64,000 nucleotides of DNA from an uncultured Clostridia bacterium. Lineage in GTDB: Bacteria > Bacillota > Clostridia > Oscillospirales > Ruminococcaceae. How positions within the stretch are numbered: the stretch's first letter is position 1; the number at the start of each line of letters is the position of its first letter. The notes under the pieces were generated by a model, which was given only the letters and a program-made list of their open reading frames with translations, ran no database searches and was not told the origin of the DNA. The DNA lies in assembly GCA_945829235.1 (NCBI GenBank), contig CALZUA010000005.1, forward strand, positions 1 to 64,000, written 5' to 3'. Both the position numbers and the translations under genes were made by a program. Of this stretch, positions 6,315 to 19,399 are shown in pieces.

Positions 6315-6457
6315 CTGTTCTGTTAGTAATCTGCTCTATCATTGGGAATTTGTCAAGTTTATTTTCACGTTTTTCATTCTGCGCGTGGAATTTGCCGACA
6401 AGAGTTATTGACAAATTTCGATTTTTCAATCTGTTTTTTTGCCCTACAAACCGGCAT

Positions 6458-7258
6458 TTATCTTTTGATTTCTTCAATTAAATAGGCACTTAATTTATTT
6501 AAATCAGATTCCGGCAGTTCGTACTGTTCATCTTCATACCATATTTTCATCGCAAGCTTTGGCAGATAGCTTAATTCTTCGGGTACGTTTTCTATCATCC
6601 ACAAACCGCCGTCATATTTCGATAGTATCTTTTTTTCTTTCTTAAAAGACAATATTCTACCCAAAATCAAAATATTGCTGGCAAAATATCTGGGATCGTA
6701 AGCATGAAAATCATAATCGTCTATATCTGAACTGATAGCTGTCCAAAAATCATCATCAGAAATGTCACCAAACACATTGGATATTTCCTTACCATACAAA
6801 ACTATTCCGCTTTGATTGATAAGCTTAATATAACTGGTTACATCTGCATCCGGAAATTCATTATCAACCACATAGCATTCAGCATCCTTATCAGCAAGTT
6901 TTTCCTGATATTTTTCCGTCCAGAAATCGCTGTAATGAAAAACACAATTTCCCGGTGTTTTCCATTCCCTTGCGTCATTTAGCAGTATTGTGGACATTTC
7001 CAATGGGCAAGGCTTTTTGTCAATTTCAATTATTTCCTTTGCAATAGACAATTTTGTTGGGATATCCAAAGATTTATTCACAACAACTAAAATATCAATA
7101 TCCCCAGATTTAGGATTGAAAGCATTTAATACGATTGAACCATGAAGATATACTCCAACTAATTCATCATTCATATATTTTTCCCATATATTGACTACCT
7201 TTTCTATCTGATGACTGATTTCTTCAGGTAAATCATTGTAACCAACTAAATTACTCAT
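6458..7258 (-). CDS. Aminoglycoside nucleotidyltransferase-like protein
   Basis: 266 residues. The nucleotidyltransferase motif is clear: HGSIVLNAFNPKSGDIDILV, with Gly40-Ser41 and the metal-binding Asp53 and Asp55. The rest has the acidic, Trp/Tyr-rich helical character and length (about 260) of ANT(3'')/ANT(9) adenylyltransferases (AadA-like, DUF4111 C-terminal part). By family knowledge these transfer AMP from ATP to streptomycin or spectinomycin; substrate cannot be read from sequence. It is expressed from the leftward half of a divergent promoter pair at 7386-7414. The AT-rich codon use differs from the preceding genes, which fits acquisition by transfer. Confidence 0.75.
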   Translation of the reverse strand: MSNLVGYNDLPEEISHQIEKVVNIWEKYMNDELVGVYLHGSIVLNAFNPKSGDIDILVVVNKSLDIPTKLSIAKEIIEIDKKPCPLEMSTILLNDAREWKTPGNCVFHYSDFWTEKYQEKLADKDAECYVVDNEFPDADVTSYIKLINQSGIVLYGKEISNVFGDISDDDFWTAISSDIDDYDFHAYDPRYFASNILILGRILSFKKEKKILSKYDGGLWMIENVPEELSYLPKLAMKIWYEDEQYELPESDLNKLSAYLIEEIKR

Positions 7259-7367
7259 GTTTTCACTCCACCTTTTCTATATTCTAAATGTCAAATTCCG
7301 ATTAACAATGCAACCTTCCTGCACCATAAACCTATTTTTCAGTCTTGAAATTTTAACTGCGTTATAG

Positions 7368-7516
7368 CTAACGAGCGTTTTCATCATTATACCACACTAT
7401 CGCCCTGTTGTCAAGAAATAAAACAACGCAAATATAAGTTTATTTTTCCTTTTTTATTATTACTGCTCTTGACAACAGTGAAGCGAAATGCTATAATATA
7501 AGAAAACGAACGTTAG
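7368..7516. promoter_or_regulatory. Back-to-back promoters with matched operator-like sites
   Basis: Leftward: TTGACA (complement of 7409-7414), 17 nt, TATAAT (complement of 7386-7391). Rightward: TTGACA 7469-7474, 18 nt or 17 to the first in-register TATAAT at 7493-7498. Each is followed by nearly the same 15-mer at the expected transcription start: GAAAACGCTCGTTAG (leftward, 7368-7382) and GAAAACGAACGTTAG (rightward, 7502-7516). The -35 region (TTGACAACAG) is also shared. The paired site may be an operator for one repressor serving both sides. The left promoter serves the nucleotidyltransferase-like gene; what the right one originally served is unclear. Confidence 0.65.
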
Positions 7517-7571
7517 TCGCGCGAGAAGGTTTATGATTTATAAGAAACAGAAAATCTGAGGTAATTTGTAA

Positions 7572-7697
7572 CGCGATTGCAATGGCACCTGTGGTGTTCT
7601 CCTATATGGGGGATTTTATAACGGAAAAGTTCTATTGTACGGAATAAGCTTTGTTCTCTCGGTGATTTCACTTATATGGTATAATTGTGTATTATAA
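7572..7697 (+). pseudogene. Possible tail of a small membrane protein
   Basis: Between the rightward promoter and the next gene an open frame without a start codon encodes 41 residues ending in a hydrophobic segment (YGISFVLSVISLIWYNCVL) and TAA. It looks like the C-terminal helix of a lost membrane protein, perhaps the original partner of the rightward promoter. Too short to assign. Nothing else is visible in 7517-7789. Confidence 0.25.
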
Positions 7698-7789
7698 CCA
7701 TGCCACCGAAACTACACTTGCCAATTTGTGTTACTCTGTTACAGCTGCATAGCTTGACATTTTCCGAAAGACAGGAGGTTAATAAGAAA

Positions 7790-8968
7790 ATGAATTTTTC
7801 CAAGCAGATTATTAACGAATACAGAAGAAAAGCCGACAAGCGAGTTGCTTTTGTTTGCAGAATGATGATAGGCTTTATACTGTCGATTGCGCTGCTGAAT
7901 ATCGTCGGGATTTTCATAATAGAGCCCGTTCCGCTGTATGTGACAGTTGCTGTTTCGATTATTGATTTTTTCCTTCCCACACTGTTTTATAATATACTGA
8001 AAATCCACTCTTTAAAAATAAGATATCTTATTCTGGCAATTCTGGTTATTCAGTCCGGTCTTATGTATGCGGTGCTTTCCTATCACACAATAATTATGCT
8101 GGTATTCCCGCTTGTGATGTCGTGCTTGTACAGCAGCAAAAAGGAAGTTATCTTCACGACAATCCTCAGCATTCCTATGATTATCGGTTCACACCTTGCG
8201 GCGTTTTATCTGAAAACCATTCCCGATGAACCGCTGGTTACACTTAAAGGAACAATTATGTACGGAATTATCCCAAGAATGCTTCAATTCTTGGCTGTAG
8301 CAGTAATATGCTATTTTATCTCCGACAGAATTGAAAAGCTTGTCGATACTCTTGCGAAAAAGAACAACGAGCTGTACGAGGACCAGGAAAACCTTATTCT
8401 CTCGCTCTCGCAGATTATCGAAAACAAATCCGAGAACACGGGACAGCACGTTCGCCGCGTTAGTGAATACACCTCGGTTTTGTGCAAGAGTCTGGGATAT
8501 GACGACGAAGGAAGCTGGAAGATAAGTCTTGCGTCAATGATGCACGACGTGGGAAAAATTATGATACCCGAGTCATTGCTGGAAAAACCCGGAAAGCTGA
8601 CGGACGAAGAATTTGAGATTATGAAAAAGCATACGCAGTACGGAAAGCAAATGCTCGAAACATCGCCGGGCGAGCTGTTCAATATCTCAACCGAAATCGC
8701 ATATCAGCATCACGAGCGTTGGGACGGCACAGGCTACATAGGTTTAAAGGGTGAGGAAATTTCACGCCACGCAAGATGCGTAGCACTTGCAGATGTTTTC
8801 GATGCGCTGGTCAGCCGCAGAGCCTACAAAAAACCGTGGCCGCCCGAGAAAGCCCGCGAGGAAATCGTGTCGCAGAGCGGTAAGCATTTTGACCCGGTTG
8901 TTGTTGAAGCATTTACGAAAAATTTCGACAAGTTTCTTGAAATTATGGAACGCTACCCCGATGAATAG
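7790..8968 (+). CDS. Membrane-bound HD-GYP domain protein
   Basis: 392 residues from ATG 7790, chosen because AGGAGG lies at 7773-7778. About six membrane segments fill residues 20-195, then a coiled linker and a C-terminal HD-GYP domain: HVRRVSEY, MMHDVGK (near residue 250) and HHERWDGTGYIGL (near 306). HD-GYP proteins hydrolyse cyclic di-GMP through the HD metal centre. Here the signature GYP tripeptide is GYI, while the metal-binding His/Asp residues are kept, so activity is plausible but not certain. The membrane part has no recognised ligand-binding domain. A second HD-GYP gene lies 1.5 kb downstream. Confidence 0.85.
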   Translation: MNFSKQIINEYRRKADKRVAFVCRMMIGFILSIALLNIVGIFIIEPVPLYVTVAVSIIDFFLPTLFYNILKIHSLKIRYLILAILVIQSGLMYAVLSYHTIIMLVFPLVMSCLYSSKKEVIFTTILSIPMIIGSHLAAFYLKTIPDEPLVTLKGTIMYGIIPRMLQFLAVAVICYFISDRIEKLVDTLAKKNNELYEDQENLILSLSQIIENKSENTGQHVRRVSEYTSVLCKSLGYDDEGSWKISLASMMHDVGKIMIPESLLEKPGKLTDEEFEIMKKHTQYGKQMLETSPGELFNISTEIAYQHHERWDGTGYIGLKGEEISRHARCVALADVFDALVSRRAYKKPWPPEKAREEIVSQSGKHFDPVVVEAFTKNFDKFLEIMERYPDE

Positions 8969-9432
8969 TTTCTTGTCCAATCGCACTTGAGTATGCTCTG
9001 TCAGTAAACCGGTGCAGAATCATTAACTTTCAGACAAGTCAATAGAGAAAACAATATAGAGATTATTGCGGCAACATAATAACCTGCCCTTCCCCCAAGA
9101 ATTATTGATGGAGCTAAGATTTTCTTAGCTCCATATCATTTTCGGGTTTGACTTGTCACGCTTTCGGGGAATTTGCACACCGAGGCGTCACCGTCCTGTG
9201 AAATTCATCACATTTTTCAAAATCACCAATATCTCAAGTACGGATATCCTCATTATGGGGCTATGTAAGTTATAGTCATATTTCCTGATTGGTAGTATTA
9301 TTTCAGAATGTTAGAAAAAATGTAGCAGGAAGAAAGCTCGCTACTGCGGATAGATGATTCGTTCAAGATGATAATTGTGGGCTAAAATAAATGTGTATGC
9401 TAATCTTTTGCTATGACAATAGGAGATAAATT
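8969..9432. other. Intergenic stretch
   Basis: Apart from the terminator hairpin at 9108-9134, no coding potential, repeat or recognised riboswitch is seen. The last 30 nt carry the ribosome site TAGGAGA of the following gene. Confidence 0.5.
9108..9134 (+). terminator. Hairpin terminator after the HD-GYP gene
   Basis: ATGGAGCTAAGA and TCTTAGCTCCAT form a perfect 12-bp stem with a TTT loop. The downstream T-run is weak (ATCATTTT), so function as a terminator is likely but not certain. Confidence 0.6.
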
Positions 9433-10467
9433 ATGGTTTATTTAGTGTGTTTTATTCTGTCAATAGTGATGTTTCTTTGGGTAATCGTCAGGAGCGACTC
9501 TTTCAGAATAAATCAGATAATGTTGATAGTTGTAACAATGGCAGGTAATGGTGGATACTATGCTCTTGCAACATCAACCTGCCTTGAAAAGGCAATTCTT
9601 GCAAACAATCTGACATATTTAATCGGGATATTTTCGCCAATGCTTCTTTTATTAAATATATGTGAAATTTGTCGGTTCAAGCTTCCGCGCCGATTGGTTG
9701 CAGCAATGTATTCAATTCAGATGCTACTTTATTTGAGTGTATGCACAACGGGTAAATATGAGATTTTCTATAAAACAGTTCAGTTTAATATGGACGAAAA
9801 AGGAGTTTATCTGACAAAGACATACGGTCCAATGCACACAGTGTATCTGATTATGATGTTTTTATTTCTTGTGGCAGGAATATGCGTTTCAATATATTCA
9901 AGCAAAAAAAGAAATATAGTCAGCTATAAAAACATTGATTTGATGGTTTTTGTGATTATCGCAATAGTCGTGACATACGCTATCCAACGCTTTCTTCATT
10001 TAACGGTGGAGCTTATGCCGATTGTGTTTACATTTGGCATTGTTGTTATTTTAGTTCCCATTACCAAAATAAGGAACTTTTCCGTTGACGGAAATAAGGA
10101 AATAATTAGCGAGAAACTTGAGAAATCGGGATATATTGTTTTTACGAAGAAGCTATACTATATGGGGTGCAACAAGACCGCCGCAGAACTCTTTCCCGAG
10201 CTTGAGAAATGGGAACTCGAAAAGAAAGTCCCCGGAAGCGGCGGAAGATTTAATACTTTTTTGCGTCAGCCTCTGATGCAATATATAAACTCAAATCTCA
10301 AAGAACCGTTAAAGGGTAAATCATTTGTAATTAAGGAAAAGAGCTTTGGATTTTCAATCAGATGTCTGAACAGCGGGAAACGGCATATAGGCTACATAAT
10401 CGAATTGATTGACATTACGGATTTGTTGGATAATCAGACTGACTGTAAAGCGGAAATGGTTAAATGA
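9433..10467 (+). CDS. 7TM sensor protein with PAS-like C-terminal domain
   Basis: 344 residues, AGGAGA before the ATG. Seven hydrophobic segments fill residues 1-215 in the pattern of the histidine-kinase N-terminal 7TM module, followed by a cytoplasmic domain of about 120 residues with PAS-like features (SGYIVFTKKLYYMGCNKTAAELF) ending IGYIIELIDITDL. No kinase, GGDEF or HD domain follows in the same protein. The next gene starts 13 nt downstream and encodes an HD-GYP protein, so the two are probably one operon and may form a sensor and c-di-GMP output pair (inference). Confidence 0.7.
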   Translation: MVYLVCFILSIVMFLWVIVRSDSFRINQIMLIVVTMAGNGGYYALATSTCLEKAILANNLTYLIGIFSPMLLLLNICEICRFKLPRRLVAAMYSIQMLLYLSVCTTGKYEIFYKTVQFNMDEKGVYLTKTYGPMHTVYLIMMFLFLVAGICVSIYSSKKRNIVSYKNIDLMVFVIIAIVVTYAIQRFLHLTVELMPIVFTFGIVVILVPITKIRNFSVDGNKEIISEKLEKSGYIVFTKKLYYMGCNKTAAELFPELEKWELEKKVPGSGGRFNTFLRQPLMQYINSNLKEPLKGKSFVIKEKSFGFSIRCLNSGKRHIGYIIELIDITDLLDNQTDCKAEMVK

Positions 10468-10480
10468 CTGGAGAGAAACA

Positions 10481-12640
10481 ATGAAAAGAATAATCTCAAC
10501 TGCAGAAATCTTAATCAAATGGTTTGTCTATGGAATGTTGCTTATTACCGTTCTTATTGTTGCCGTAGCTTTATTCAGCAACGATACTGAGGGAGAAGCA
10601 CAAACAGGCTCTTTTGACGCGGTTGGATTCAATGAGGGCTGGACGCTGGAAATGAACGGTAAAACCGAAGCTATAACTCTGCCGGTTACCGTTGACGCCA
10701 AAAGCGGAGATTTTTTGATTATCAAGAATACCTTGCCCGCTGATATACCTAACGAAAGCAGTCTGATGATGAGAGCTTCAATGGAAGATATATACATCTA
10801 CATAAACGGCGAGCTTCGTGAGCAATATGCGATGGAAAGCATATCGGTCGGAGCGTATTCCTTGCCAAGTGCTTATGTTGTCACAGAGCTTTCCGAACAA
10901 GACTCCTGCGCGGAGATTACCGTTCAAATTCGTGTAAAGACACGAGGAACTCTCAATGAAATACTGATTGGTCCGGGAAACAACGTCTGGTTCAGTATAA
11001 TACAGAAAAACATACCCGTTAATGCTGTCGCGTTTGTTGTGTTAATATTAGGCGTTATCCTTATAATAGCCTGGCTGGTTCTGCATCGATTTGAACAGAA
11101 TTCCCGTGCCTCGTTCTTTTTAGGACTGCTTATGACAGACATAGGTATATGGGTGTTCAGCGAGTCAAATCTTCGGCAGATAATTTTTTCAAAACCGTCT
11201 TTGTCGGGATTTTTCGCATATTTCTCTATAGAATTACTTGGGGTATTGGCGAGCTTGTTTTTCGATGAGGTTCAACACAAAAAATACCACAAAATCTATA
11301 TAATCATAGAATCCGTTGTTTGTATTCAACTGACAGTAAATATAATTCTGCACTTTACACACGTTGCGGATTTGTATCAAACCCTGATTTTCTCACATAT
11401 ATGGATGGTTCTGGGACTTGTTTTTGCTGTTGTAAATGTAATTAAGGATATCCGTACAAAGAGGATAAAGCAATACAGTGCAATTGCAGTTGGTATGGTA
11501 TGTTTTCTTGTAACATCGTTGCTGGAGCTGGTTGTTTTCTACATTTCAAGATTTTATGTTTTCGGAATATTTATATGTATAGGTCTTGTTATGCTTACTG
11601 TAGCGACTGTTATTCAAGCTATTATAGACCAAATCAGAATTTCAAGAGAACGTGAAAATAAGCAGACAAGAATGGTAGTAAGTACGATTGAAACTATCGC
11701 AGGAGCTATTGACGCAAAAGATGAATATACGGGCGGTCACTCGGAACGTGTCGGACATTACGCCACAATTTTAGCGCGCGGAATGGCGGCAGATTATGAC
11801 TTTTCCGAAGAGGATATTCTGCGGATACAGTATATTGGAAATATGCACGATATCGGAAAAATAGGCGTAACCGATTCTATTCTTAACAAAGCAGGGCGGC
11901 TTACCGATGATGAATTTTGCCTTATGAAGAAGCACGTTGATATCGGTGCGGAGCTTATGGTGGGAATTGGTGAGAATATTGACGGGCTTGTTGACGGTAT
12001 CCTTTATCATCACGAAAGATTTGACGGAAAAGGCTATCCGAAGGGACTGTCTGACACGGATATTCCGCTTGTTGCACGAATAATATGTCTTGCGGACTGC
12101 TATGACGCTATGACGTCAAACCGTGTTTATAGGAAACGTCTGTCAAACGAGGACGTTCGTGCGGAATTCGTAAAATGCTCCGGCACTCAATTTGACCCTG
12201 CTTTGACCGAGATTTTCGTTCGATTGATAGACAGCGGCGAGATGGTTCCGTACACGGTTGATGGTTTGGCAACCACAAAAACAGGCGATGTACTGAAATC
12301 CGCATTACTTGAGAATTACTTACAAAAGAACGCCAATTCCGAAGAAACAAAGGCAATAAATCCCGCGCACATAAGAATGATGTGCTATATTATGAAACTG
12401 AAGGAGAAAAAGGGCGAACGGGTTAATGTTTTTCTGTTAAAGCTCTTGAATAATAGCGATGAAAATTGGGAAATGACCAACAAACTTCTCAAGACCTTTT
12501 TGCAAGCCGAAGATATAAGTTTGTCGTATAGTGAAAATAAGCGTATTATTTCCCTGTTTGATAAAACGGATGAGCAGATTGAAGGCTTTACTAAAGCCTT
12601 GCACAACAGCACAATTCAGATAGATATTGAAGAGATTTGA
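10481..12640 (+). CDS. 7TMR-type receptor with canonical HD-GYP phosphodiesterase domain
   Basis: 719 residues from ATG 10481 (GGAGAG upstream; longer readings overlap the previous gene). One N-terminal helix is followed by an outside domain of about 170 residues resembling 7TMR sensor modules, then seven membrane helices (about 190-385), a short coiled linker and an HD-GYP domain with every signature residue: HSERVGHY, MHDIGKIG and HHERFDGKGYPKGL. It is therefore expected to hydrolyse cyclic di-GMP. A helical tail of about 120 residues follows, of unknown role. Probably co-transcribed with the 7TM-PAS gene before it. Confidence 0.88.
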   Translation: MKRIISTAEILIKWFVYGMLLITVLIVAVALFSNDTEGEAQTGSFDAVGFNEGWTLEMNGKTEAITLPVTVDAKSGDFLIIKNTLPADIPNESSLMMRASMEDIYIYINGELREQYAMESISVGAYSLPSAYVVTELSEQDSCAEITVQIRVKTRGTLNEILIGPGNNVWFSIIQKNIPVNAVAFVVLILGVILIIAWLVLHRFEQNSRASFFLGLLMTDIGIWVFSESNLRQIIFSKPSLSGFFAYFSIELLGVLASLFFDEVQHKKYHKIYIIIESVVCIQLTVNIILHFTHVADLYQTLIFSHIWMVLGLVFAVVNVIKDIRTKRIKQYSAIAVGMVCFLVTSLLELVVFYISRFYVFGIFICIGLVMLTVATVIQAIIDQIRISRERENKQTRMVVSTIETIAGAIDAKDEYTGGHSERVGHYATILARGMAADYDFSEEDILRIQYIGNMHDIGKIGVTDSILNKAGRLTDDEFCLMKKHVDIGAELMVGIGENIDGLVDGILYHHERFDGKGYPKGLSDTDIPLVARIICLADCYDAMTSNRVYRKRLSNEDVRAEFVKCSGTQFDPALTEIFVRLIDSGEMVPYTVDGLATTKTGDVLKSALLENYLQKNANSEETKAINPAHIRMMCYIMKLKEKKGERVNVFLLKLLNNSDENWEMTNKLLKTFLQAEDISLSYSENKRIISLFDKTDEQIEGFTKALHNSTIQIDIEEI

Positions 12641-12649
12641 TACCAAAAC

Positions 12650-12902
12650 GTGCTTGTCAAGCCCGTAGCAACTATGATTTTTTCGTGTTTACCGAAGTTG
12701 ATTTTTAGGCTGAAACGCTTGTTATTGCTTTGAGAAATCTGCGTGAGGGAAGTGTTGCCTTTTGTTTTTATACCGACATTTTCAAAGGTTTCGCCGTTAA
12801 TCTCAATAATCCCCGAAATCCACGGTTTTGAAGTCGCGTTTTCAATAAGATAATTCTAGTTTTCTTCATCGGTGGTTATGTTGATATCAAGCACATCTTA
12901 AC
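12650..12902 (-). pseudogene. CotH-type spore-coat kinase fragment
   Basis: On the minus strand an open frame with one internal TAG (12856-12858) reads DVLDINITTDEEN, then INGETFENVGIKTKGNTSLT, then FSLKINFG. The pattern NVGIKTKGNTSL followed by a basic S/R-F-KI-F segment is the N-terminal hallmark of CotH proteins, secreted or coat protein kinases. Both ends are missing: no start before DVLD and the sequence loses similarity after KINFGKHEK. A relic of about 80 codons lying between the HD-GYP gene and the cas9 relic. Confidence 0.6.
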
Positions 12903-12917
12903 CGAAAATAAAGGCTC

Positions 12918-12946
12918 TTGACAAATTTCGACAATTATTGTGTACT
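12918..12946 (+). promoter_or_regulatory. Possible cas operon promoter
   Basis: TTGACA 12918-12923, 17 nt, TGTACT 12941-12946, about 70 nt before the cas9 start. The -35 is perfect and the -10 weak. No tracrRNA anti-repeat was found in this intergenic stretch. Confidence 0.35.
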
Positions 12947-13013
12947 GAAAAAAGTAATATTGTTCTTGCAATTCTAAAAAGTGCAAATTGTGGAAAGCGA
13001 AAGGTGAGGAATA

Positions 13014-16000
13014 ATGAATAATTATGACAATTATTTTATGGGACTGGATATCGGAACAAACTCTGTCGGCTGGTGCGTTTCTTATGCGAACTACAAAGTT
13101 CTGAAATACAAAAACAACGCTATGTGGGTGGTATCGCTGTTTGACCCTGAAAATCAAGCGTCTGACAGACGACAACACAGATGCAATCGGAGAAGATTTG
13201 ACAGACGCAATCAGCGAATTTCTCTGTAGGAAGAGCTTTTTGCTAAAGAAATCAGCAAAATTGATTCCGATTTTTTCCTTCGCCGAAAAGAAAGCGCCTT
13301 ATTACCGGAAGACAGGTCTTACGAGAACGGCGGGTATGTCTTTGAAAACCCCGCGCTTGACAAAGCATATCACGACAAATATCCGACAATTCACCATCTG
13401 ATTTGCGATTTAATGAAAAACAAAGCACCCCACGATGTACGGCTTGTGTTTATAGCAGTAGCTTGGATTTTAGCGCATCGCGGGCATTTCTTGCTGGACG
13501 TTGAAGTAAACAATATCGATAAAATCAACAACATTTCCGAGCTTTTTCATAATCTTATGAGCTGGTTTGATACGCAGGAGTATGTGCGTCCGTTTGAATG
13601 TAATCCCGAACAATTCGGAGAAATTCTTACCAACGAAAAACGCAAACAGGAACGCGAGCACAAACTCAAGGATTTGCTTTGGAACGGCAAGAAAGCCGAG
13701 CAGGATTCGGACAGCTCCATAGACGCGGAAAAACTCGTAAAGCTCGTCAGCGGCTTAAAAGTCAAGCTGTCGGAATTGTTTGGCAACCCCGAATACGACG
13801 AAATCGAACACAACAGTATTTCTCTTGCGGACGGTAATTTTGACGAAACCGCCGAGGCTCTTTGCTCCGAAATTGACAGCGATGATATGGAGCTTATAAG
13901 GATTGCAAAATCCATTTTCGACTGGGGACAACTCGAAAATATTCGTAACGGCAAAGATTATATCAGTGAAGCCAAAGTTGAAGTATATGAAACCCACAAA
14001 AAAGACTTGAAATTACTGAAAAGGCTGGTTAAAAAGTACATTCCTAAAAAGTATTTCGAGATTTTCAGAAAGGCTGATGGTAATCTTAATAACTATGTGA
14101 AATATTCGGCTAATCTTAAAAATGCAGACTTGGGCAAAGCCAATGTGTTCAAAAACTGTTTGTGCGAGGATTTCTGCAAGTTTATTAAAGGAGTTTTCAA
14201 TGGGATTGTTCCCGATGAAGAGGACAAGTCCGTTTTTGAACAATAAGGACAAATACGGAACCGTTGCCGATAAAATACTGTCAATTATGAAATTCCGCGT
14301 TCCATATTATGTTGGACCGTTGGTTAATCTTGAAGGAAACGATACCTCTTGGATTGTGCGAAAAGCCGGAAAAATCTATCCGTGGAATTTTGACGAAATG
14401 GTTGACAAGGATAAATCCGAAGAAGAGTTTATCGGCAGAGTGACCGCAAAATGCACCTATATCGCGGGAGAAGATGTTCTTCCGAAAAATTCTCTGCTTT
14501 ATTGCAAATTCAGCGTACTGAATGAAATCAACAATATTCGCATTAACGGCATAAGGCTTGATACTGCCGTTAAGCAAGGCATTTACAACAATGTTTTTTG
14601 CAACACAAAAAGGTTACTCTCAAAAAAATCAAGGATTATCTGTCCTCAACAGGCAATTTCACCGAGGGAAAGGACAAACTCGAGGGCATAGATGTTTCTG
14701 TAAAATCATCACTTAAACCGTATCTTGATTTCAGAAATTTGCTTCAAAGCGGCTTTCTTTCCGAAAATCAGGCGGAAGAAATTATTGCGAGAATTACTGT
14801 AACCACAGACAAAAATCGTCTGAAAAAGTGGCTCAAAGCAAACTTCTCTCTTAACGACAGCGATGTGAAATACATTTCAAATCTTGGATATACCGATTAT
14901 GGCAGGCTTTCAAAGAGGTTTCTTTCCGAGCTTCCCGAGGTTGACTCTGTATCGGGCGAGGTTTTGGGCGGTACTGTTATCGAACAGCTTTGGGAAAACT
15001 CCGTTAATCTTATGGAGCTGTTGAGCGATAACCGCGGGTTTAAATGGCAACTGGACGAATTGAACCAAGAATACTATTCCGAGCACCCCAAAACTATTGA
15101 AGAACGTCTTTCCGATATGTATGTGCCGACCGCTGTACGGCGTGCTGTTATCAGAACTATCGACATTGTTAAAGAAATCAGGAAATTGACCGGCTCTGCT
15201 CCCGCGAAGATTTTTATGGAGATGGCGAGAGACCACACCGATGACCAAAAGGGCAAGAGAACCGTTTCTCGTAAAAGCAAAGTTGAAGAATATCTGAAGA
15301 AAATGCCCGACACCGAAGAGCTTCTGAAACTGCTTGAAAGCAAGTCGGAAAGCGAGTTAAGAAGCGACAGGCTTTTCCTCTATTTTATGCAACAAGGAAA
15401 ATGTATGTATTCGGGAGAACCGATTGATATTGAAGAACTCGGCACAGAACGATATGATATCGACCACATTTTCCCTCAGTCAAAGTTTAAGGACGACAGC
15501 ATCGACAATCGCGTGCTGGTGAAATCAGACATCAATCAGAACGATAAAAAGGACATATATCCCATTGACCCGAAAATACGGTTTAAAATGCACGGCTTTT
15601 GGATTATGTTGCATAAAAACGGGCTTATCAGCGACAAAAAATTCGAGCGGCTTACGCGTTCAACACCGTTCACCGACATCGAGCTTGCGGATTTTATCAA
15701 CAGACAGCTTGTTGAAACAAGACAGTCAACAAAAGCTGTAACGGTTTTGTTGAAAGAAATGTTCCCCGAAACCGAAATTGTGTATGTCAAAGCAGGAATT
15801 GTTTCGGAATTTCGTCAGCTGTATGATATGGTTAAATGCAGAGAGATAAACGATTTGCACCACGCAAAGGACGCTTATCTGAACATTGTTTTGGGAAATG
15901 TTTATGATACAAAATTCACAAAAAATCCGTTGAATTTCATCAAGGAAAACGGCGGAAACAATCACAACTATTCAATGAAAATCACTTCTCTTCTCGACCA

Positions 16001-16964
16001 CGATATACAGCGCGGAAATGTTATCGCTTGGAAGAAAGACGAAACCATCGCAACGGTTAAAAAACAAATGTCGAAGAACAACATCAGATTTGTAAGATAT
16101 TCTTTCTGTCAGAAAGGTGAACTATTTAAACAGGAGCTGTTGAGAAAAGGGCACGGGCAGGTTCCGAGAAAGAAAGGTCTTGATGTTGAGAAATACGGCG
16201 GATATCAGAAATCGGCAATCACATATTTCCTTCTTGCAAAGTATAAAAAGGGGAAGAAACAAATTATAGCTTTAATTCCCGTTGATTTGAGATTTGCCGT
16301 AAACGTCAAAACATTTGACGATAAAGTTAAATTTTGCAGTGATTATGTTGAACAGAATTTCAATGCGAATCTTGAAACAGTTTTGCTTGGCGGGCGGAAA
16401 ATCAAGATAAACACTTTGTTTGAAATTGACGGTTTCAGAGCTAATCTTTCCTGCCGCACGAACAATAATATCTGGTTCAAGGGAGGAATGCAACTTGTTC
16501 TGTCGTGGGAATTCGAGCTTTATGCCAAGAAATTGTCCTCGTATTCCGTAAAGTTCAGCGACGCGGTAAAGTTCAAATCCGATATTCCTCAGATAACAAA
16601 ATACGATAAAATCACGCCGGAACAGAATATTGCTTTGTATGATTTTCTTTATGAAAAGCTTGCCGTTACAAAGTATGGAATTCTGATGCCGACACCGCTT
16701 GAAACGTTGAAAAACAACAGAGAGTTCTTTATAAATCTTCCTGTCGAAAAGCAAGCGATTGCGCTTTTGCATGTGATTGAGCTTTTCGGTTGCTCCAATT
16801 CATCAGGAACCGACCTTACTTTGATAAACGGAGCAAAAAGCACAGGTATTCTCCAGATATCGATGTCGCTTAACGGAACAAAACGCTTTTCCGATATCAG
16901 AATTATAGACCAGTCACCGACAGGTCTTATCGAACATCGCTCGGAAAATCTGCTTGAAGTATGA
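13014..16964 (+). pseudogene. cas9: Type II-A Cas9 nuclease gene, multiply broken
   Basis: Read through its breaks, the gene spans about 1,315 codons, normal for type II-A Cas9. RuvC-I (YFMGLDIGTNSVGW) is at the start, then the bridge helix (RRFDRRNQR), recognition lobe, RuvC-II (KIFMEMARD, near 15,210), HNH (YDIDHIFPQS with its catalytic His, near 15,452-15,481) and RuvC-III (HHAKDAYLNI, near 15,858). Breaks: an in-frame TAG at 13227-13229 where a Leu is usual; a shift near 14,230-14,246, with loss of the usual segment before PFLNNKDKYG (a small deletion, possibly across a repeated CCGTTTTTGA); and a one-base shift near an A-run at 14,605-14,615. No full-length protein can be made, yet catalytic residues are intact, suggesting recent death. 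It overlaps the next gene by 4 nt (ATGA). Confidence 0.9.
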
Positions 16965-17713
16965 GCTGGAGAACCGTTGTTATCACCTGTCGATGCAAGC
17001 TCGACCTCAAACTCGGTTATGTGGTAGTTCGTTCGGAGGATACGAAACGTATTCTTCTGGACGAGGTATCGGTTATAATTGTTGAAAACAACGCGGTTGC
17101 CGTCACAGGCTGTCTGCTGAATGAGCTTGCACTTTTCGGCATCACTTTTTCGAGAAATAGTTCAAATGCAATAAATGCCGCTCTGAATTACGGCTACGCT
17201 CTTATTTTAAGCGCTGTCAATCGTGAAATATGTGCCTGCGGATATCTTACTCAGCTGGGGCTGTTTCACGATAATATGTTTAACGAGTTTAATCTCAGCT
17301 GTGATTTGATGGAGCCGTTCAGAATAGTTGTGGACAGGTTCGTTTTCAAAAGGAAATTCAACATTTTTGAAAGTGAACAGAAACACGAAATGTGCAAAAT
17401 CTTTGAACAGGTGTTTGACGTGGACGGAAATAAGCAATATCTTTGCAACGCGATAAATTTCCGACTGAATGATGAGAAATACAGTTTGGAGGAGAGTATT
17501 TTCAATTATATGCTGAATGTTCGGGAGCTTGATGGCGATAAGATTTTTGTATTTCTGAATCTTATGTCGTTTATCGATGAAGAACAACGGGAGGTGTTTT
17601 TCAAAACAATCGTTGACCATCGTTTCAATACATTGTTTTTAGAACCGCGAGCGGTAAATTCTCACAATTTAGTCAATCAGATTATAATTGATGAGGATTT
17701 TTGCGTAATATAA
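16961..17713 (+). pseudogene. Cas1 with middle deleted, fused in frame to the C-terminus of Csn2
   Basis: An intact 250-codon frame made of three parts. Residues 1-57 (MSWRTVVITCRCKLDLKLGY to CLLNEL) are the Cas1 N-terminus. Residues about 58-164 (ALFGITFSRNSSNAINAALN to KQYLCNAIN) are the Cas1 C-terminal part with LGLFHDNMFN and SCDLMEPFR. About 100 residues between, including the catalytic Glu, are missing. From about residue 165 the sequence (YSLEESIFNYML, DKIFVFLNLMSF, QIIIDEDFCVI) matches the C-terminal half of Csn2. So cas2 and the first half of csn2 were deleted and both joints kept the frame. Integrase activity is not expected. The family assignments come from motif recognition, not a search. 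Confidence 0.8.
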
Positions 17714-17742
17714 TTGACTTTTGGCGAAATTTGTGGTATTAT
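17714..17742 (+). promoter_or_regulatory. CRISPR leader-type promoter
   Basis: TTGACT 17714-17719, 17 nt, TATTAT 17737-17742, directly after the csn2 remnant's stop codon and 21 nt before the first degenerate repeat: the position of the array leader in type II-A loci. It would now drive the unknown ORF at 17826. Confidence 0.6.
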
Positions 17743-17763
17743 ACAAATATACCCTTGAAATAG

Positions 17764-17799
17764 CACGGCGAGTAGTGTTATTTAAGAGGGCAGCAAAAC
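17764..17799 (+). CRISPR. Degenerate CRISPR repeat 1
   Basis: 36 nt with core GAGTAGTGTTATTT followed by GCAGCAAAAC. It matches repeat 2 at 27 of 36 positions, most differences in the first six bases. Type II-A repeats of Clostridia commonly begin GTTTGAGAGTAGTG and end AAAAC. Leader-proximal position. Confidence 0.6.
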
Positions 17800-17825
17800 T
17801 AAATAAATTGAAGGAGACAAATAAT

Positions 17826-18275
17826 ATGAGTACAACGACTATAAACGAGAAGGATTTTCTTATCTATGATTACAACAATGGAAAATTCCATTCTAGACCA
17901 GAAGTTCGTATTAACGACGAAAATTACAAAAAAATTATTGACAATATTAAAGAATTCAAAACTATTTGGGACTATATTGCTTTATTTAACCAAACAGGTC
18001 TAGTTGCTCTGAAAGAAATTAATTACAAAAATGACGATTCGGATCTAAATTTTGATTTTAAAATTGCTTATAGTATGTTCGGAACTTATGTGAAAGACGT
18101 TAACACTGAAAATTATCCAACTGACACAGAAACTGGGGTATATTCTTTAGGCTCTGCATCAGACTGGAATAATTCTCATGATCTTGATATTTTTATGGAA
18201 GATCTTCGTGTTTATTCCGATAGTAAAATGCGTGAAGATATTAGGGCTTTTTATGATATGTCAGATATATATTAA
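17826..18275 (+). CDS. Unknown small acidic protein in the CRISPR array position
   Basis: 149 residues from ATG 17826 with AAGGAG 9 nt upstream (the frame also runs upstream through the repeat, but without a good start). About 28 Asp/Glu against 16 Lys/Arg, no Cys, no signal peptide or membrane segment, so a soluble acidic protein. Base composition is visibly more AT-rich than cas9 or the phage genes next door, suggesting separate origin. It sits exactly between two degenerate CRISPR repeats and behind the leader promoter. I do not recognise the fold. Candidates are an anti-CRISPR (small, acidic, array-adjacent), a phage gene that replaced the spacers, or a toxin/antitoxin-like guard. None is proven by the sequence. 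Confidence 0.7.
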   Translation: MSTTTINEKDFLIYDYNNGKFHSRPEVRINDENYKKIIDNIKEFKTIWDYIALFNQTGLVALKEINYKNDDSDLNFDFKIAYSMFGTYVKDVNTENYPTDTETGVYSLGSASDWNNSHDLDIFMEDLRVYSDSKMREDIRAFYDMSDIY

Positions 18276-18282
18276 GTATGTA

Positions 18283-18318
18283 GTTTGAGAGTAGTGTTAT
18301 TTCAGAGAGTAGCAAAAA
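18283..18318 (+). CRISPR. Degenerate CRISPR repeat 2
   Basis: A 36-nt unit beginning GTTTGAGAGTAGTGTTATTT and ending GAGTAGCAAAAA, close to the expected type II-A repeat, only the last base departing from the AAAAC end. It starts 8 nt after the stop of the unknown ORF. No further unit follows, so only the two repeats of this array remain. Confidence 0.7.
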
Positions 18319-18334
18319 GTCGGTTGTACCGCTC

Positions 18335-18396
18335 AGCGCAAGTGTTGCGCTCATATGAAAAAATTAAAGGGGTCTATCTATTAGTCCCCTTATTCT
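18335..18396 (+). terminator. Hairpin and terminator after the array
   Basis: A perfect 7-bp hairpin AGCGCAA/TTGCGCT with GTG loop (18335-18351) is followed by a second stem AAGGGG/CCCCTT (18367-18390) and ATTCTTTTT. The second is a good intrinsic terminator for transcripts from the leader promoter. Confidence 0.6.
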
Positions 18397-18397
18397 T

Positions 18398-19399
18398 TTT
18401 GAGCAACAACTTGCCGAGCGACTTGACGCGAGCCGTTCCAACGCGCTCCGCCTGATACGCACCGAGAGCAGTCATATCCACAACGCCGCCAAGCTTGACG
18501 CTTACAACGAGTGCGGCTTCGAGTAATACGAGTTTATGGCGAGCCTCGGCGAGTGAACCTGCGAGGTCTGCGGCGGTATGGAAGGCAAGCGGATTAAGCT
18601 CACCGACAAGCAATTTGGTGTGAATTTCCCGCCCCTGCACCCGAACTGCCGCTGTACAACAATCGCCTTCGACCCCGATGACGACCTCTCGGATTTCAAG
18701 GCGGGGGAGCTGGAATATGAAGAGTGGTACGCGAAATATGTCGAGGGCAGGGAACAGTCGAAAGAAAAAGCAAATTCGGGATTGACAAATGGCGAAAAAG
18801 GTGATATAATGAGCTTGGGGAGTGATGATGTGGCTCTTGAGTATCAGCGGTATGGCAGAAATAAAGAAACGTTAATCAACAACACATATATTGAAAGCGG
18901 TGAGTATCGCCGAAAATTTGATAGTGCAACCGATGTTCCTGAGGTGAATAGGTCGATTTATCAATGCTCAAAGGCAGCGCTGAAACATCGCAGTGGTTCT
19001 GTTTTTGAAGATATGTATTGGATTGACAGTAAAAACGGCAAAGTAATTTTGTCGGTTACCGACAGCAGTGACGAGAGAGCTATCATTTATACCGAAAATA
19101 TCAAGAAAACTATTTCGGGGTACAATGATATAATCACTGTTCATTCGCACCCGAGCAGTATGCCGCCGAGCGTATCAGACCTTAATTCTTGCTTCAAAAA
19201 TCATTATAAAATGGGTTTTGTTGCTTGTCACGATGGTCGAGTGTTTGCATATTCTTCTAACGAAGAGGTTAATGAGCGTATATACAGCGCATATATCGAA
19301 AGATTTTTGAAAGACGGGTGCGATGAGTTTAACGCTCAACTAAAGGCACTTGAAAGATTATCACTGAACTTTGATGTTAGCGTGTGGGAGGTGTTGTGA
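18398..19399 (+). pseudogene. Phage MuF-type head protein with JAB-like C-terminal domain
   Basis: The frame reads LRLIRTESSHIHNAAKLDAY, then stops at TAA 18524-18526 and TGA 18554-18556, then TCEVCGGMEGK and PPLHPNCRCTT: the end of the Mu gpF/SPP1 gp7 minor head domain with its Cys pairs. From 18578 it stays open for 273 codons. After a linker the C-terminal domain carries TVHSHPSSMPPSVSDL, the HxHP...S..D metal motif of JAB/MPN peptidases. MuF domains joined to variable enzymatic tails are known phage polymorphic toxins, so the tail may be an effector. The N-terminus is missing. The part after 18578 could still be made if an internal start is used. Confidence 0.7.

Follow-up and report, generated by a model that had tools for sequence, protein, structure and literature searches.

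A decayed type II-A locus with an open reading frame in the spacer slot

The window, that is, the whole stretch of DNA analysed, is 64 kb long and forms the beginning of a 180-kb contig in a 3.2-Mb genome. Positions 13014–17713 hold a decayed type II-A cas operon, which is followed by the leader, two repeats and a possible terminator (Table 1). There are no spacers between repeats 1 and 2; a 483-nt insert bearing an ORF of 149 codons occupies the array slot, as the initial annotation had described, and this anatomy can be taken as practically certain.

Table 1. Features of the type II-A locus of the window
Feature	Position	Strand	Basis
cas9 pseudogene	13014–16964	+	stop at 13227–13229; frame changes near 14243 and 14590
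cas1 without its middle part, joined in frame to the csn2 end (250-residue ORF)	16961–17713	+	
Promoter-like hexamers of the leader, TTGACT and TATTAT, 17 nt apart	17714–17742	+	same place in relatives' leaders
Anti-repeat segment of the leader, complementary to the repeat and pairing with repeat 1	17751–17766	+	fold; segment also in relatives
Repeat 1, with leader sequence in place of its 5' end (core 17770–17799)	17764–17799	+	
483-nt insert in the spacer slot	17800–18282	+	
Ribosome site GAAGGAG	17810–17816	+	sequence
149-codon ORF, orphan acidic protein	17826–18275	+	homologue in G283
Repeat 2, degenerate last repeat	18283–18318	+	
Possible terminator hairpin with T-rich tail	18367–18399	+	fold, −12.9 kcal/mol for 18355–18400

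Concerning the cas genes, cas9 has at least three lesions, while the 149-codon ORF stays intact, and cas2 is gone. A tracrRNA-like element directly upstream of cas9 was not found in the window; it is present in the related loci L022–L030. The best other repeat-like site of the window, at position 9289, is weak, with a score of 24 vs 34–52 for the tracrRNA-like element in eight relatives, and an Rfam scan of the window returned one tRNA only. The set of working cas9, cas1, cas2 and csn2 with a tracrRNA, which characterises a type II-A array, is not found in the window. Four separate loci have lost adaptation genes or hold them in shortened form, yet preserve the extreme end of csn2 beside the leader: the window (16961–17713), L004 (4144–4380; an uncultured Ruminococcus locus of the same family as the window genome), L024 (5988–6808) and L040 (upstream of the array; the array locus of genome G283, where the csn2 end precedes the leader). 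The csn2 end is perhaps retained because it borders the leader promoter. Directly after the array of the window, at 18396–19399, lie the remains of a MuF/SPP1 gp7-type phage head protein, with two in-frame stops in their upstream part.

The repeat and leader of the window are common to type II-A loci of relatives (L004, L022–L026, L028–L030 and L040), and the repeat, far from being absent from the arrays of relatives, represents a real family among them. With 3 mismatches allowed, the two-repeat pattern matched only repeats 1 and 2 in the 3.2-Mb genome, with 0 matches for a backwards control; two repeat patterns had 0 matches in IMG/VR. In L004, L023–L026 and L040 the leader has, in this order, a promoter-like site, the anti-repeat segment and the nonamer GAGTAGTGT, and a short stretch then leads to the first repeat, where GAGTAGTGT occurs again. 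The distance between the two nonamers is 33–34 bp in L023–L026 and 45 bp in L004; L022 and L028–L030 have the nonamer in variant form. The anti-repeat segment is found in 10 of the 11 relatives' leaders which were read (the exception is L027). In the window, the leader GAGTAGTGT continues straight into the remainder of the repeat. The element annotated as degenerate repeat 1 is indeed a repeat, but one damaged at its 5' end, and it is best read as the leader nonamer joined to the first repeat through a deletion of ~33 bp between the two copies. Repeat 2 is degenerate, as annotated. The proposed leader promoter is supported mainly by its same position in relatives' leaders, because the region has 5 such promoter-like sites vs a shuffle mean of 3.7. 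The proposed terminator is seen as a fold, but a consensus scan called 0 terminators.

In type II-A arrays, leader and first repeat are reported to pair in a hairpin (Liao et al. 2022, as described in PMC12080349). The leader/repeat-1 hairpin of the window has a folding energy of −16.9 kcal/mol vs a mean of −7.5 (sd 2.5) in 300 base shuffles; the type II-A leader hairpin is thus predicted to be shortened by the fusion but kept, and the ribosome site of the ORF lies outside it. Compared with such arrays as far as that source describes them, the window shares the repeat family of its relatives, the anti-repeat leader segment and the hairpin with repeat 1, and differs in having no spacers, a shortened stretch between leader segment and repeat, and an ORF after the repeat.

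The ORF is tightly placed, with 26 nt between repeat 1 and its start and 7 nt between its end and repeat 2, and the ribosome site claimed for it is present. Among 5000 base shuffles of the insert the longest ORF had 117 codons and none reached 149; this measure gives 155 codons for the real insert, as it allows an earlier TTG start. The acidic and AT-rich character noted initially is borne out: the product has a pI of 4.45 and a net charge of −12.3, and the GC content of the ORF is 29.8% vs 43.8% for the window, a value as low as that being found in 0.4% of the window's 450-base stretches. In the intact array of L022, the first spacer (minus strand, oriented 7470–7499) resembles a ribosome site with a start codon (AAAAGGAGGCGAATCATAATGG), in the same place as those of the window, possibly by chance.

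The only clear homologue found for the ORF

The ORF had been called unrecognised, and it matched no family of Pfam, NCBIfam or PADLOC and no phage or plasmid protein at E values up to 1. Matches to PDB chains were at chance level (E = 0.81 and 1.5), with none for a two-sequence profile, and a single-sequence AlphaFold2 model of the product was unusable (mean pLDDT 36.6). A match to an ordinary phage or housekeeping family, which would have spoken against the initial annotation, did not appear. One match to PHROG 18787 (E = 0.0031) was taken as chance: in a scan which lacked a positive control this family was seen in 0 of 297 family genomes, in the phylum set it was seen in 1 of 398 genomes as two scraps in 31-residue frames, and the G283 homologue has no match to it. 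A match in G022 (E = 0.0057; 2 of 100 genomes, the other being the window's own) is a 74-residue ORF in a different setting and was also taken as chance.

Word scans of IMG/VR and of a species genome collection returned no relative of the ORF. The IMG/VR scans depend on near-exact words, so that relatives could escape them; the species-collection scan missed the G283 homologue, which indicates that word scans are insensitive, if a like genome is present in that collection. Distant-mode DNA searches with positions 17700–18420 of the window against phages, and with the G283 insert against phages and plasmids, were empty, so the copy in phages that the initial annotation suggested looking for was not found. 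Among the open-licence papers listed by searches for genes inside CRISPR arrays, none describes such a case, as far as titles and the starts of abstracts tell.

We compared the ORF with genome sets that contain one genome per species and overlap with each other. At E ≤ 0.001 a match is found in two of 396 family genomes (the window's own and G283) and in one of 398 phylum genomes (its own), and the two-sequence profile matches one of 40 genomes of the G283 genus, namely G283 itself. By sequence, the one clear homologue that these comparisons brought up also lies within a decayed type II-A array, in a different genus; this is new, and it answers the suggested search beside other type II-A arrays. 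The two proteins, the known members of the family, are 43% identical over 144 residues (E = 4.5e-34), and the homologue has 155 residues, a pI of 4.29 and a charge of −13.4. The blocks FNQTGxVA and KIAYSMFGT...DVNxxNYPTDxxTGVY are common to both. Over 148 codons of the two aligned genes the identity by codon position is 0.62, 0.61 and 0.37, as expected of a protein under constraint; the silent sites are saturated, too much so to give a dN/dS value.

The array of G283 has a leader and seven repeats. After repeat 4 there is a gap of 871 bp instead of ~30, and both repeats which bound it have 0 mismatches to the consensus. The insert opens with a 92-codon frame whose beginning is missing, the upstream remnant, and the stop of this frame overlaps the start of the homologue as ATGA, an operon-like join. 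The only hint to the nature of the remnant is a weak match to the C-terminal end of a P4-family phage/plasmid primase model (E = 0.12). IMG/VR matches of the remnant in L041 and L042 were rejected, as they span 24 residues close to the beginning of a protein of 2930 residues (seen in L041; L042 is alike); the IMG/VR matches L044–L048 are not homologues and were also rejected. No Pfam family, including helix-turn-helix regulators, is found in the ORF product, the homologue or the remnant. A relative of the window's Cas9 was not found in G283, with a query that matched 18 of 297 genomes. Without its insert the G283 array amounts to 401 bp of ~2.4 Mb, so one random landing in it has a chance of ~2 in 10,000.

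Inserts in type II-A arrays and the number of entries

The two ORFs (43%) are more alike than the loci in which they lie, and this speaks for separate entries: window and G283 share 24% identity over the 46 residues of their csn2 tails, while G283 has 50–54% with L024, L025 and L026, and the window has 41% with L022. Also, a large gap within the array is absent from eight of the nine arrays L022–L030 (all but L024). We therefore lean towards separate entries, or transfer from array to array, as a better fit than descent from one filled array; with csn2 tails of 46 residues only, this is a leaning and not a proof, and a single ancestral insert behind both copies is disfavoured to that extent. 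CRISPR arrays seem to have picked up this family more than once, and we consider recurrent, separate entry into type II-A arrays to be probable.

Looking at the loci together, large inserts are found in all three with a broken or missing cas9 (the window, L024 and G283) and in none of the nine with a full-length cas9 frame (Fisher P = 0.0045, post hoc; a full-length open frame is all that 'intact' means here). The 12 loci are those of the window and G283 and of ten of the 17 other genomes from the Cas9 search (L022–L030, and G191, whose locus is L004). Outside the count are G102, G263 and G354, which have other repeats or no array in the scan, and G321, G330, G362 and G363, which were covered only by short loci. 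L029 and L030 are hardly independent, as their csn2 tails are identical, and the arrays of L004, L023 and L026 run into contig ends. In L024, whose cas9 is broken up into one frame of 540 codons and one of 835, a 4102-bp insert (7200–11301) inside the array contains a glycoside hydrolase, a regulator and a transposase, all recognised by eye. This insert shows that a dead array can take up DNA without an anti-Cas9 gene, and such inserts of other kinds are the best argument against the ORF as the cause of the decay.

These counts, and the unrelated genes of the L024 insert, are what would be expected of passive insertion: with cas9 dead the array would no longer be kept clean, and a piece of stray DNA could settle in it, carrying an unrelated small gene that is still open by chance. 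This is the main rival explanation, and we rate it as somewhat unlikely. The chance insertion already considered in the initial annotation is weakened by the second array-borne copy and still stands as a rival. Against it are the recurrence of one very rare family in two arrays that belong to different sublineages, which is the best argument for a special link between family and array slot, the intact state of the ORF next to the cas9 lesions, and its tight fit between the repeats.

An element which targets array DNA could also have brought the gene in as transposon- or integrase-borne cargo. L024 shows that several genes with a transposase can land in such an array, and the G283 insert has, 6 and 37 nt from its two ends, a 14-nt imperfect direct repeat (86% alike), which may be chance or a trace of entry. 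Like transposon insertions in arrays, the ORF-bearing inserts are foreign DNA between two repeats; they differ in that neither has terminal inverted repeats reported, and no match to transposase or integrase families is seen in the frames scanned, namely the ORF, the homologue and the upstream remnant, which makes this route quite unlikely.

Origin and possible role of the ORF product

The best reading overall, which we hold tentatively at a little under even chances, is that the spacer slot of the decayed type II-A array has captured DNA of a mobile element, which can be expressed there from the leader promoter. The mobile-element origin by itself is fairly likely, given the low GC content of the ORF, its truncated operon partner in G283 and the hint of a primase; against a mobile source stands the lack of a phage, plasmid or IMG/VR copy in the searches described above. 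The DNA, in G283 a 5'-truncated upstream gene with the ORF homologue, would have come into the array as an insert the size of a gene, through repeat-to-repeat recombination or the integration of an over-long spacer, as the intact repeats flanking the G283 insert suggest. Expression from the leader promoter would explain why the gene was retained. In the least certain steps, the acidic protein would have served in counter-defence by blocking Cas9 or its guide RNA, and the cas genes and spacers would have decayed after this block.

An anti-Cas9 role of the product is plausible, and as a specific assignment, a Cas9-directed inhibitor is possible rather than probable. Genes of anti-CRISPRs frequently, but not obligatorily, have a linked helix-turn-helix regulator. 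The ORF product resembles type II anti-CRISPR proteins in being small, acidic, an orphan and located beside a disabled Cas9 locus; it differs in lying inside the array and in having no phage or plasmid copy found and no significant PDB sequence match. As cas9 is already broken in the window genome, there may be nothing left in it for an anti-CRISPR to inhibit. The widest form of the proposal, in which arrays act as gene-capture slots with repeat-bounded, leader-expressed 'spacers' the size of genes, and one captured family is an anti-Cas9 gene which silenced the system for good and left a dead locus, is less likely than not by a wide measure. If the array slot can capture and express genes, arrays would be possible entry points for genes, including those which end immunity, besides being records of invaders. 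The small protein family named here is so far known only inside type II-A arrays, and its two members can be tested directly against the intact Cas9 systems of relatives.

Other roles were considered for a gene which uses the array promoter as its expression site. It could be of use in defence or in superinfection exclusion, with no relation to Cas9, which would agree with the constraint on its coding sequence and with the CBASS-like cyclase, E2 and SAVED effector adjoining the G283 array; neither the ORF nor the homologue matches a PADLOC family, and we find this explanation very unlikely. L040 has, at 11368–13711 and 6427–8187, these CBASS-like genes, whose SAVED effector matches its models in their later part only, and a resolvase-type recombinase.

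The initial annotation had also proposed a guard toxin with a CreTA-like arrangement; such a toxin would be released when Cas9 fails. In CreTA, a guide from one or two degenerate repeats acts with Cascade to repress a toxic RNA (PMC9458426). The window has degenerate repeats next to a small gene, as in the guards covered by that source, and its Cas9 is dead; it differs from them in having a gene for a 149-residue protein, not a toxic RNA, between the repeats, and in being a type II locus. We abandon this proposal as highly improbable, since the two repeats enclose no guide of spacer size and the locus lacks a working effector; moreover, a tracrRNA element was not found, and the host evidently survives with its Cas9 broken. 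Racr and solitary repeat units, as far as they are described in PMC10651486, are similar to the window in their repeat copies, promoter-like site and absence of working cas genes, and differ in that the window holds the chromosomal remains of an array next to cas remnants, on a 180-kb contig, and not a repeat in a virus.
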